Shown in pieces: positions 1 through 17,705 of a stretch of DNA of 34,915 nt. Both the position numbers and the translations under genes were made by a program. The notes under the pieces were generated by a model. It was not told the origin of the DNA. It searched no databases and saw only the letters and a program-made list of their open reading frames with translations. This stretch comes from Candidatus Scalindua arabica (GTDB lineage: Bacteria; Planctomycetota; Brocadiia; Brocadiales; Scalinduaceae), in contig JAANXD010000070.1 of NCBI GenBank assembly GCA_018263435.1, positions 1 through 34,915 on the forward strand. The letters run 5' to 3'. Every line of letters starts with the position of its first letter. Position 1 is the stretch's first letter.

Positions 1-204
1 TTAGAGGTAAATCTGTTATTGGCATTTATCCCATGCTGCCTGATCTTGATCGCTCGACAGCAATAGGGATTCCAAATTTTCTGCAGACATCACGTATAGC
101 AGAAACATCTTTCTCCCATCCATCATCGTCAAAATCAATTGCTAAAAAATAACAGCTTTCATCAGGCAGCATGGGATAAATGCCAATAACAGATTTACCT
201 CTAA
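1..204. repeat. Fold-back inverted repeat at the window edge (44-bp arms)
   Basis: Bases 1-44 are the exact reverse complement of bases 161-204, with a 116-bp spacer (45-160). The left arm runs to the first base of the window, so its true length is unknown. The arm lies inside a conserved primase coding sequence and replaces what should be its continuation. The sequence at the switch point (atcaggc) could have served as microhomology. This looks like a chimeric fold-back (amplification or assembly) more than a natural repeat, but a real inverted duplication cannot be excluded from one sequence. Confidence 0.85.
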
Positions 205-652
205 GATGTTCTTCAACAATATCTTCGTTTAATTGAGCATATAATTTGTGTGTACATTTGGAGCATTTGATTTTTGGTTTTTCACAGACTCCCGGTTGCC
301 ACTCATTCAAACAGACAGGTGAATATCCCGACACTCCTTTTTTATTTTGCCACCTCTTCGCATATACATTTTCTCGGCCCTTAAAGAGAGACATAAAAAG
401 AATTATTTTATTTTTTGTGTCAGAAAAACTATTAAGAGGTTTATTTTCTGTTTCTATAGATTCAATTTTAGGCTTATTTTCACAGAGTTCTATACTTGTT
501 TCCTCAACAGATAGATCTGCTGCCGAAGTTGATTCCGACTGTAAAATACCGCTATTCAACTCCAACATATTTATTTTATCTCTAAGTTTCGTGTTTTCTT
601 CAAGTAGCGCCTGATATTTTTTGTATAATTTTTTGTAGCTGATTTTTTCCAT
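26..652 (-). CDS. TOTE-type archaeo-eukaryotic primase domain protein, N-terminal fragment
   Basis: The N-terminal part of a primase-like protein of the family annotated as TOTE conflict system primase. It opens with a coiled-coil-like stretch (about residues 8-35), then an acidic linker. The conserved domain starts near residue 85 (LFKGRENVYAKRW, GYSPVCLNEW). It holds a likely zinc-binding C-x6-C-x2-C cluster (VCEKPKIKCSKC) and the acidic AEP motif (LAIDFDDDGW) that normally binds metal for nucleotide transfer. Full-length relatives usually carry on past AVERSRSG into more primase sequence and often a helicase/nuclease region. Here the frame enters an inverted arm immediately after RSG and meets a stop within four codons, so the last residues (SMG) are not native. 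Read it as a gene cut by a sequence discontinuity, not as a natural 208-residue protein. Family call fairly sure; activity not inferable. Confidence 0.75.
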   Translation of the reverse strand: MEKISYKKLYKKYQALLEENTKLRDKINMLELNSGILQSESTSAADLSVEETSIELCENKPKIESIETENKPLNSFSDTKNKIILFMSLFKGRENVYAKRWQNKKGVSGYSPVCLNEWQPGVCEKPKIKCSKCTHKLYAQLNEDIVEEHLRGKSVIGIYPMLPDESCYFLAIDFDDDGWEKDVSAIRDVCRKFGIPIAVERSRSGSMG

Positions 653-4494: not shown

Positions 4495-4828
4495 AAAGAT
4501 TTGAGAAATTTAATTTAGGAAAACGAATCTTACCAAATACTTCAATATGCAATTTATAACTACATATACAGACAAGTTACAAGAAAAAAGCGGGAGAAAT
4601 AGAATTTAGATCTACGCTCGATCATTTGTATATTTTCATTTTTTACATTGTGTAAGATGCAACAATTATACCAAAAATATATTAATCCTCATTATCTTCA
4701 ACTCATTATAGATTAGTTGGTTATGAAATCTTGATATTTGTACTCTTTGCTTATAAGAAGATTTAGTGGGCAGTTTTTATACAAAGTGGTCATTCTTAGC
4801 AGCAATGTGGTTAAACTGAAAAAAACAG

Positions 4829-4856
4829 TTGAAAACTTACAGGCATTTACTATATT
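4829..4856 (+). promoter_or_regulatory. Candidate ahcY promoter
   Basis: TTGAAA (4829-4834), a 16-base spacer and TATATT (4851-4856) resemble a sigma-70 type promoter. Transcription would start near 4863, giving a leader of about 80 bases that contains the hairpin at 4890-4917. A weaker candidate lies near 4731. Prediction from consensus only. Confidence 0.45.
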
Positions 4857-11342: not shown

Positions 11343-11436
11343 CTTGTTACGGTCATTGATATTTGAATAATAATTAATGTAGAGTTATTTTTTCGGGAAC
11401 CCTAACCTGGACGTGCCAGAATAACAGGAGTTCAGT

Positions 11437-14483: not shown

Positions 14484-15956
14484 TTACACGTAGTATTCCT
14501 GGATCGACTTGACATCCAATTCGCCGTTTGACATAGACTTGATGGCGCTCTCTGCTGCAATAGCACCTTGCACTGTTGTAAAATAGGGGATGCCGGATAC
14601 TATTGCGTATCGTCGTATGTTATAAGACTCTTCTTGTGAAATCTTTCCTTCAGATGTGTTAATTACTATCTGGATGTCATTGTTCTTTAAGTGATCTATT
14701 ACGTTAGGACGTCCTTCATATTCTTTAAGGACGGTAGTAACAGGAGTATTTTCCTCTGCTATGGCCTTTGCCGTTCCTCCGGTGGCAAAAATCTTAAAAC
14801 CCAGATCGTGAAGCTTATGAGCTATATCTACTATTGGAGGCTTATCTCTATCCCTGACACTTATAAAAACCGTACCCGATAGAGGGAGTCCTCCTTCAGT
14901 AGCCATCTGCGCCTTGGCAAATGCCTTCCCAAAGTCAACGTCAACTCCCATTACTTCGCCTGTAGATTTCATTTCCGGGCCCAGGATAGTATCTGTACCA
15001 TGAAATCTTACAAACGGGAAAACAGCTTCTTTAACGGCTGTGTGTTTAATCTGTTTTTTGTCATCTATATTCAACTCCTTCAGTTTGCGTCCCGCAATAA
15101 CTTTAGATGCTATTTTTGCAAGTGGAATACCGATTGCCTTACTGACGAATGGTATTGTTCGTGAGCCGCGCGGATTTACTTCCAGCACATATACCACGTC
15201 ATCTTTCACGGCAAATTGAATATTAATAATGCCCAGGACATTTAACTCCAGGGCCAATGCCTGCGTTTGTGATCTTATATTTTCAATAACTTTCTCTTTT
15301 ATAGAGTAGGGGGGTAATGAGCATGCGCTATCACCCGAATGTACACCGGCTTCTTCTATATGCTCCATGATGCCTCCGATGAAAACATCTTCACCGTCAC
15401 ATACGGCGTCAACGTCTATCTCAATTGCGCCTTCTAAAAATTTGTCTATTAAAACCGGATGTTCAGGAGAGACGTCAACAGCATGTGTCATATACTCTTC
15501 AAGCTCACCTTCATCAAAGACCACTCTCATTGCCCTGCCGCCCAAAACGTAAGAAGGTCTTATTAAAACAGGATAACCTATTGAAGCCGCAACCTGTTCA
15601 GCTTCTGTGAATGACCGTGCATTTCCATTGTCCGGTTGTAAAAGGCTGAGTCTGGACAAAAGTGCCGCGAATCTTTTGCGGTCTTCCGCCATGTCGATGC
15701 TATCCGGTGAGGTGCCAAGAATCTTAACCCCTGCGTTGGCTAGCGGTACTGCCAGTTTGAGGGGAGTCTGGCCTCCAAACTGTACAATAACACCTTCCGG
15801 TTTTTCTTTCTCAACGATTTCCATTACATCCTCAAAAGTAAGGGGCTCGAAATATAACCTGTCAGATATATCGTAATCTGTACTTACAGTTTCCGGATTG
15901 CAATTAATCATAATTGTTTCAAATCCCATTTCTTTCAAGGCCAGTACTCCATGCAC
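14484..15956 (-). CDS. carB: Carbamoyl phosphate synthase large chain, C-terminal half (split by a stop codon)
   Basis: The second half of carB. It holds the carbamoyl-phosphate-forming ATP-grasp domain, the oligomerisation part and the MGS-like allosteric domain (from about FIS VRDRDKP, with FATGGTAKAI) that usually senses UMP, IMP or ornithine. The open frame actually begins right after the TAG at 16086-16088: YTPYLYSTYETECEANPTSK, then the Rossmann-like IIILGSGPNRIGQGIEFDY and the codon at 15956 (GTG, read as V in the intact protein). No ribosome site serves that GTG. It is therefore the continuation of the upstream half in the same frame, not an independent gene. ATP-grasp residues such as VLEVNPRGSRTIPF are intact. 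Together the halves give the usual full length (~1070 residues). Confidence 0.9.
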   Translation of the reverse strand: MHGVLALKEMGFETIMINCNPETVSTDYDISDRLYFEPLTFEDVMEIVEKEKPEGVIVQFGGQTPLKLAVPLANAGVKILGTSPDSIDMAEDRKRFAALLSRLSLLQPDNGNARSFTEAEQVAASIGYPVLIRPSYVLGGRAMRVVFDEGELEEYMTHAVDVSPEHPVLIDKFLEGAIEIDVDAVCDGEDVFIGGIMEHIEEAGVHSGDSACSLPPYSIKEKVIENIRSQTQALALELNVLGIINIQFAVKDDVVYVLEVNPRGSRTIPFVSKAIGIPLAKIASKVIAGRKLKELNIDDKKQIKHTAVKEAVFPFVRFHGTDTILGPEMKSTGEVMGVDVDFGKAFAKAQMATEGGLPLSGTVFISVRDRDKPPIVDIAHKLHDLGFKIFATGGTAKAIAEENTPVTTVLKEYEGRPNVIDHLKNNDIQIVINTSEGKISQEESYNIRRYAIVSGIPYFTTVQGAIAAESAIKSMSNGELDVKSIQEYYV

Positions 15957-16085
15957 ACAGCAATAGTCAAATTCGATACCCTGGCCGATACGGTTAGGGC
16001 CGCTCCCCAGGATAATTATTTTTTTCTTTGATGTGGGGTTAGCTTCGCATTCAGTCTCGTATGTGGAATACAGGTATGGCGTGTA

Positions 16086-17705
16086 CTATGGTATCTCAGA
16101 CGCCCGGTTAGCAACCACTTTATACACAGGACGGATATCATTTTTCTGGCGGTAATTACGAACTTCTGCTTCCGTTGTATTTAACAGGGTTGCTAACCGG
16201 GCGTCTGAGATACCATATTGTTTTGCCTTTTTTAAGAGAGACGGATCTGTCATGGGTTCAGGTTGGTTTCTAATCTCTTCTTCCAGTTCCAAAATTTGTT
16301 TCAAATTATATAGAAACCATTTATCAATCATGGTGATTTCATGGATCTCATCAATATCCATTCCCATACGCATACCATCTACAACAGACCAGAGCCGATC
16401 CCACGAAGGACTCAACAGATGTCCCTTTATGAATTCCTTTTTCTCTGAATCGTTCAGGTCGGCTTTACTATGATGTTCGTCTAATCCATGGCAGCCAATC
16501 TCCAGGGATCTTACAGCTTTGCCCAGAGACTCTTTAAAAGTACGCCCTATAGCCATTACTTCACCAACTGATTTCATGTGAGTGGTAAGGGTCTGGCCTG
16601 CATCAGGAAATTTTTCAAAGTTGAATTTAGGGATTTTAACTACACAATAATCTATAGAAGGTTCAAATGAGGCCGGTGTATAGCGCGTAATATCATTTGG
16701 TATCTCATCAAGCGTATAACCCACTGCCAGTTTTGCAGCGATCTTCGCAATCGGGAAGCCTGTGGCCTTAGAAGCCAGTGCAGAACTTCTTGATACTCTT
16801 GGATTCATTTCTATTACAATCAATTCTCCATCGGCGGGATTTACTGCGAACTGGACATTAGACCCGCCAGTTTCAACCCCTATCTCACGAATAATCTTGA
16901 TTGCCGCATCTCTCATTATCTGATATTCCTTGTCAGAGATCGGAAGAGCACAAGCCACAGTTATGCTGTCGCCAGTGTGAACTCCCATAGGGTCAAGATT
17001 TTCTATAGAACAAATTATAACGACGTTGTCCTTGAGGTCTCTCATTACCTCCAGCTCGTATTCTTTCCAGCCCAGGACAGATTTCTCAATTAATATTTCA
17101 TGAACCGGACTTGCCTCCAGGGCGAAATTTACAAATTCTTCCAGTTCTTCAATGTTGTAAGCAACATTACCTCCTATGCCTCCCAATGTGAATGATGGCC
17201 GTATTATTATGGGGAACTGTATCTCCTTCGCAATCTCCTTTGCATCTTCTACGGATTTTGCATTACCGCTTGCCGGTACCTGCATGCCTATATTTTCCAT
17301 GGCTTCTTTAAATTCTTCTCTGCTCTCTGCCTTTTTTATAGCATCCAGTTTAGCGCCTATTAATTCTACATTGAACTTATCCAGGATATCTTCTTCTGCC
17401 AGAGTAACGGATAAGTTCAGGCCGGTTTGTCCCCCTAATGTTGGAAGCAGGGCATCTGGTCTCTCCTTTTGTATGATCTTTGTTAATACGTCAGTAGTCA
17501 TCGGTTCTATGTACGTTCTGTCCGCAATATCCGGATCAGTCATTATCGTAGCAGGATTGCTGTTTACGAGGATGATTTTGTAGCCTTCTTCTCTCAGTGC
17601 ACTGCATGCCTGAGTACCGGAGTAATCGAATTCACATGCCTGTCCGATTACTATTGGGCCTGACCCGATTATGAGTATTTTTTTAATATCAGTTCTTTTC
17701 GGCAT
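16086..17705 (-). CDS. carB: Carbamoyl phosphate synthase large chain, N-terminal half (ends at an in-frame TAG)
   Basis: The first half of carB: the carboxyphosphate-forming ATP-grasp domain ([22 protein letters not shown] at the start, [20 protein letters not shown] near 295-320) and the oligomerisation domain. It uses ammonia passed from CarA to activate bicarbonate. Its start overlaps the end of carA by 17 bp, so the two are translated in tandem. After PVYKVV the nearly invariant family sequence DTCAAEFEA should follow. Instead it reads ANRASEIP then TAG, exactly the same number of codons, and family sequence resumes at YTPYLYSTYE. The odd codons lie in a 30-bp exact inverted copy of carB bases 16188-16217. 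Either a natural template-switch mutation has broken an essential gene, or the sequence is a local artefact. The second seems more likely, since frame and both flanks are otherwise intact. Confidence 0.92.
16087..16217. repeat. 30-bp perfect inverted repeat inside carB
   Basis: 16087-16116 and 16188-16217 are exact reverse complements with a 71-bp spacer. The right arm is the expected sequence, coding for [10 protein letters not shown] of the oligomerisation domain. The left arm replaces the conserved DTCAAEFEA codons and supplies two of the three bases of the TAG. Arm length, the in-register replacement and the unchanged flanks are the signature of intrastrand or fold-back template switching. 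Confidence 0.95.

Follow-up and report, generated by a model that had tools for sequence, protein, structure and literature searches.

A mirror-image contig start in a Candidatus Scalindua draft genome, most probably a fold-back read tail kept by the assembly

The window analysed here, 34,915 nucleotides long, is an entire contig (labelled C71) of a 2.69-Mb Candidatus Scalindua-like draft in 102 contigs, which is rated 95% complete with 3.5% contamination. From its first base it carries an inverted copy of sequence lying slightly further in, and a primase gene is cut at the same place. The question raised by this locus is whether such a mirror-image start belongs to the genome of the organism or to the way in which the data were made. 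Comparison with relatives and a scan of the assembly indicate that it is almost certainly a fold-back read tail kept by the assembly, and hence a laboratory or assembly artefact and not biology, although the events at the level of the reads are deduced from assembled sequence.

The inverted copy in the primase gene

The geometry described by the first-pass annotation of this DNA was reproduced by computation: bases 161-204 are mirrored at 1-44 as a perfect inverted copy of 44 nt, which begins at base 1 and is separated from its source by a spacer of 116 nt. The chance that a terminal 44-mer has a perfect reverse complement within 1 kb is about 2e-23. The region comprises the following features:

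1-38, no strand: inverted copy of 167-204, foreign here, and probably a fold-back read tail standing as the contig end (perfect reverse complement, homology stop at 39)
39-44, no strand: junction microhomology CCTGAT (ATCAGG on the gene strand), native and common to the source arm (alignment to OFTM1 and G006)
45-160, minus strand: native spacer (hairpin loop), coding for the AEP-TOTE domain (about 90% identical to OFTM1, unbroken)
161-204, minus strand: native source arm of the fold-back (in register with the relatives' gene)
26-652, minus strand: open reading frame of a TOTE-type archaeo-eukaryotic primase, cut by the contig end (PF22548, E 3.2e-51, profile positions 2-126 of 230)

Among named relatives, Candidatus Scalindua OFTM1 is the closest for this gene, with a protein that is 85% identical. 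The match of the window to the genes of OFTM1 and of a second relative, G006, ends at base 39; as these relatives follow the window to that base and then continue as a normal gene, bases 1-38 do not belong to this locus. The inverted copy is absent from three relatives (L004, L230, and L231) whose native sequence passes the junction, and a natural repeat at 1-204 was rejected for this reason. Together with the position of the copy, flush with base 1, this absence supports the earlier proposal that the contig folds back on itself.

The switch had been placed directly after the RSG of the primase domain, and this is where it lies: the residues at the junction read SRSGSMG followed by a stop in the window, and SRSGNGSHVWFFF in the relatives. 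Codons of the primase reading frame below base 39 are artefactual. A microhomology of seven nucleotides (atcaggc) had also been proposed at the junction. The microhomology itself is present, but its length is better given as 6 to 7 nt, since the six bases at 39-44 are identical in OFTM1 (L004) and G006 (L230), whereas the next base outward, a C, differs from the relative.

The cut gene is a candidate member of a TOTE conflict system, in which helicase and nuclease domains accompany the AEP-TOTE domain; what is left of it in the window is the N-terminal half of that AEP-TOTE domain. The homologue in OFTM1 (L004) is intact, with 979 amino acids and with helicase and PLD-like domains; these two domains, seen only in that relative, are missing from the window because the contig ends. 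DNA and protein searches of the own assembly did not find the rest of the gene: the sole DNA match for the missing 3' part, 200 nt at the end of C68, is to sequence downstream of the gene, and the protein search returned a weak helicase match of 26%. Either an assembly gap or a real loss would explain the absence of the remainder.

Intact TOTE-type primase genes are present in other members of Scalindua and its family (G002, G006, G007, G015, and G016; L230-L234), and the PrimPol model of PADLOC also matches the primase protein of OFTM1. In the window, the gene adjoins one for a Fic/DOC-family protein at 982-2310 (PF02661; SoFic model of PADLOC).

Fold-backs and adapter remnants across the assembly

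The first-pass annotation had suggested a search for similar inverted repeats throughout the assembly, and this search was positive. The scan covered both ends of all 102 contigs, which corresponds to 2.27 of the 2.69 Mb; one end of C73 consists entirely of N and was left out of the count. Flush perfect inverted copies of at least 18 nt, with spacers of up to 1 kb, were found at 9 of 204 contig ends (C21, C22, C34, C47, C71, C84, C86, C89, and C98), and an end of C29 carries a flush copy of 15 nt. By comparison, arms of at least 16 nt occurred at only 6 of 20,000 random internal points, so that the rate at contig ends is about 150 times that of the control and the terminal excess has a P of about 3e-17. 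A flush inverted repeat of at least 10 nt was seen at none of about 39 contig ends from other public drafts, a small control.

The fold-back ends cut unrelated genes, including an atpG-like and an asparaginyl-tRNA-synthetase-like reading frame. At C89 and at C86, which holds the atpG-like frame, the homology of the relatives stops within a few nucleotides of the inner end of the arm. Terminal spacers mostly measure 96-171 nt, and those of C84, C34, and C98 are longer (512, 635, and 729 nt among these three). C98 also shows a longer hairpin at its start, where positions 1-350 pair with about 620-971 in ungapped arms that are 92% identical; the outer 121 nt are perfect and the mismatches lie toward the loop. 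This hairpin may be a different kind of chimera, and, in view of it and of the three long spacers, the terminal repeats need not all share one origin.

Inside the contigs, the scanned assembly holds 59 inverted repeats of at least 20 nt. Many of these are dispersed (GGGGACAGGCTAC type and terminator-like hairpins) and were set aside by copy number, a filter that left 22 with unique arms. The other event that had been reported for this window, in carB and with a spacer of 71 nt, is real, with perfect arms of 30 nt at 16087-16116 and 16188-16217. It is, however, not an insertion but a replacement that preserves length, since carB is equally long in the relatives. The features of this gene are:

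14484-17705, minus strand: carB, carbamoyl-phosphate synthase large chain, in two open reading frames (Pfam CPSase domains in both halves)
16087-16111, minus strand: fold-back scar, in which an inverted copy of 16193-16217 stands in register in place of about 25 nt and adds a TAG stop (relatives' carB intact and of the same length)
16188-16217, minus strand: native source arm of the fold-back (25 of 30 positions identical to L212, against 17 of 30 at the other arm)
16937-16952, plus strand: Illumina adapter AGATCGGAAGAGCACA, replacing 16 nt of carB in register (ten Scalindua relatives differ, with no change of length)

Apart from this one TAG, carB is open, and the assembly holds no second copy; it is one gene, split in two reading frames only by the fold-back scar. 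The conserved DTCAAEF stretch of CarB is altered at the point where the TAG appears. Two further scars of this kind, in genes whose names (rpoB and GAF-like) were read from sequence alone, also keep the length of the gene. In rpoB (C27, 4629-4655 and 4820-4846; L082), the replaced arm is 4820-4846 and the conserved IEMPDLI of RpoB has become LQFPAFI; in the GAF-like gene (C14, 11224-11246 and 11348-11370; L069), it is 11348-11370. For all three genes, one arm is 83-96% identical to the closest relative and the other 57-59%, without gaps. The replacements were copied in inverted orientation from 71-164 nt away and destroyed residues that are conserved in the relatives. Such replacements would each correspond to the tail of a chimeric read laid in register over the native sequence.

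Remnants of adapter were found in the same assembly. The sequence AGATCGGAAGAGC, the shared beginning of Illumina forked adapters, points outward at six ends of contigs: C53 has it at the start and C44 at the end, and C8, C62, C77, and C93 show its first 11-12 bases only. In carB, the ten relatives carry at 16937-16952 a mutually similar stretch of 16 nt that is distinct from AGATCGGAAGAGCACA, and the predicted CarB of the draft contains residues coded by the adapter (about ALPIS). This scar lies less than 900 bases from the fold-back scar of the same gene. The presence of adapter both at contig ends and inside carB implies that raw read tails became contig ends and part of the internal consensus, and no other evidence speaks as strongly for the same origin of the fold-back tails. 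The earlier claim that one technical process acted on the whole data set is thus supported by the terminal excess, the three internal scars, and the adapter carry-over.

Other traits of the assembly concern the way in which it was put together. Several contigs overlap without having been merged (for example, the end of C4 with the start of C74, and the end of C14 with the start of C59), with overlaps that vary from about 100 to over 800 bases, as judged by the position of shared 20-mers; this does not look like the output of a single-k graph assembler. Isolated N bases occur in about 24 contigs, and 9 of 29 N runs are at positions equal to 1 modulo 100 (such as 3201, 19201, and 22501), a spacing that points to units of 100 bases in some consensus or extension step.

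Origin of the fold-backs

The explanation that best accounts for bases 1-38 is that they are the tail of a single chimeric Illumina read, or of a few such reads. A single strand from the primase gene would have ended in ...ATCAGG(C); by folding back, its 3' end would have paired through about 6 nt with a complementary GCCTGAT that lies 116 nt upstream in that strand. Extension by a polymerase over about 38 nt would then have produced the reverse-complement copy of 167-204, and after ligation of adapters the resulting hairpin molecule would have been sequenced. With no better reads to carry it into the remaining gene, the assembler may have left the tail as the end of C71. Annealing, extension, and ligation are steps that we infer behind a junction, a microhomology, a source arm, a recurrence, and an adapter carry-over that can be seen directly in the assembly.

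Several known artefacts resemble this scheme. Star et al. (2014; PMC3946424) described hairpin reads, or interrupted palindromes, in TruSeq libraries made with forked adapters; as here, a tail of reverse complement is copied from the molecule's own strand after a short complementarity, and a forked adapter is involved. The palindromes of that study, from historic DNA, average 11 bp, whereas the arms found here measure 18-60 nt, with one of 121, and are found in contigs, not in reads. A related mechanism acts at end-repair, where single-strand ends anneal and are extended, so that the opposite strand, within about 200 bases, serves as template for the tail (PMC8674242, PMC10908179). The products of that mechanism, microhomology-induced chimeric reads or PDSM artefacts, were recognised as soft-clipped reads and false variants in tumour DNA, unlike the contig ends described here.

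Among the causes named by the first-pass annotation (amplification chimeras, hairpin reads, or assembly), a technical origin as such is backed by the adapter and the contig ends. Whether the fold-back already arose when the sample DNA was amplified by multiple displacement with phi29, before the end-repair of the library, is a separate matter; this would be a compatible variant of the read-tail origin, and it is a real possibility, though it falls somewhat short of even chances. Inverted chimeras of phi29 (Lasken and Stockwell 2007, PMC1855051; PMC4595205) also show an inverted join, a loop, a microhomology near 6 nt, and a preference for short distances. Most phi29 chimeras are inverted and use 2-21 nt of complementarity (PMC1855051), and the microhomologies seen here, of about 3-6 nt, are in line with this. 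Their overlaps peak at 6 nt and their distances, with a peak near 250-300 nt, range from 0 to over 5,000 nt (PMC4595205), which would accommodate the spacers of 512-729 nt. However, while phi29 distances reach several kb, the terminal fold-backs in this draft all remain within 1 kb and most are under 175 nt; 9 of the 12 fold-backs with arms of at least 18 nt have spacers of 71-171 nt. Among about a dozen events, the wide-range pattern that amplification chimeras would give was not seen: no contig end has an inverted copy more than 1 kb away on its own contig, bar one end-to-end repeat. The library moreover carries the AGATCGGAAGAGC adapter, and hairpin artefacts are known from forked-adapter TruSeq libraries that were not amplified (PMC3946424). 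In so small a set as this dozen events, the short distances may favour library hairpins over phi29 chimeras.

A biological origin fares far worse. Short-range template switches, in which a short tract is replaced by inverted nearby sequence, are known as mutations of just this geometry (PMC7954356, PMC8604942), and three internal cases in 2.27 Mb would not be impossible for a genome distant from its relatives. It is nevertheless improbable, at roughly the level of a rare exception, that some of the internal replacements (those of rpoB and the GAF-like gene) are real in vivo mutations of the Scalindua lineage and only the terminal ones artefacts. A template switch or quasi-palindrome mutation in vivo as the source of the whole set, in the primase, carB, rpoB, and other genes, is slightly less credible still. 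Template-switch mutations are inherited (PMC7954356), and an inherited mutation would not arrange itself so that nine cases lie flush with contig ends; here the cases coincide with such ends and with adapter scars. The internal cases change stretches that are conserved in rpoB and in carB, a single-copy gene, and in carB the adapter has entered by a similar in-register replacement.

The two weakest readings can be regarded as practically negligible. A natural hairpin end, or a terminal inverted repeat of a linear replicon or mobile element, would agree with a repeat that is perfect and exactly terminal, but this one is situated within a conserved gene, which continues in the relatives, and several unrelated contigs end alike, also inside the atpG-like and asparaginyl-tRNA-synthetase-like frames. 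Equally remote is a small inverted duplication that truly truncated the primase gene of this strain, with the contig stopping there by coincidence: the failure to find another piece of the gene would suit it, but the contig ends exactly where the inverted arm ends, as at eight other ends.

Consequences for the draft and its genes

The finding is foremost a matter of data quality, as the scars left by read tails cut the primase, split carB, put adapter residues into CarB, and change RpoB, a protein commonly used as a marker. In annotation, a split carB, a truncated defence gene, or a pseudogene could be read into them. A cheap test for errors of this kind in public drafts is to look for adapter facing outward at contig ends and for inverted repeats flush with those ends. 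For the organism itself, the terminal inverted copy is no genomic feature, and an uninterrupted primase gene should lie on the real chromosome, which is expected to run on past this point.
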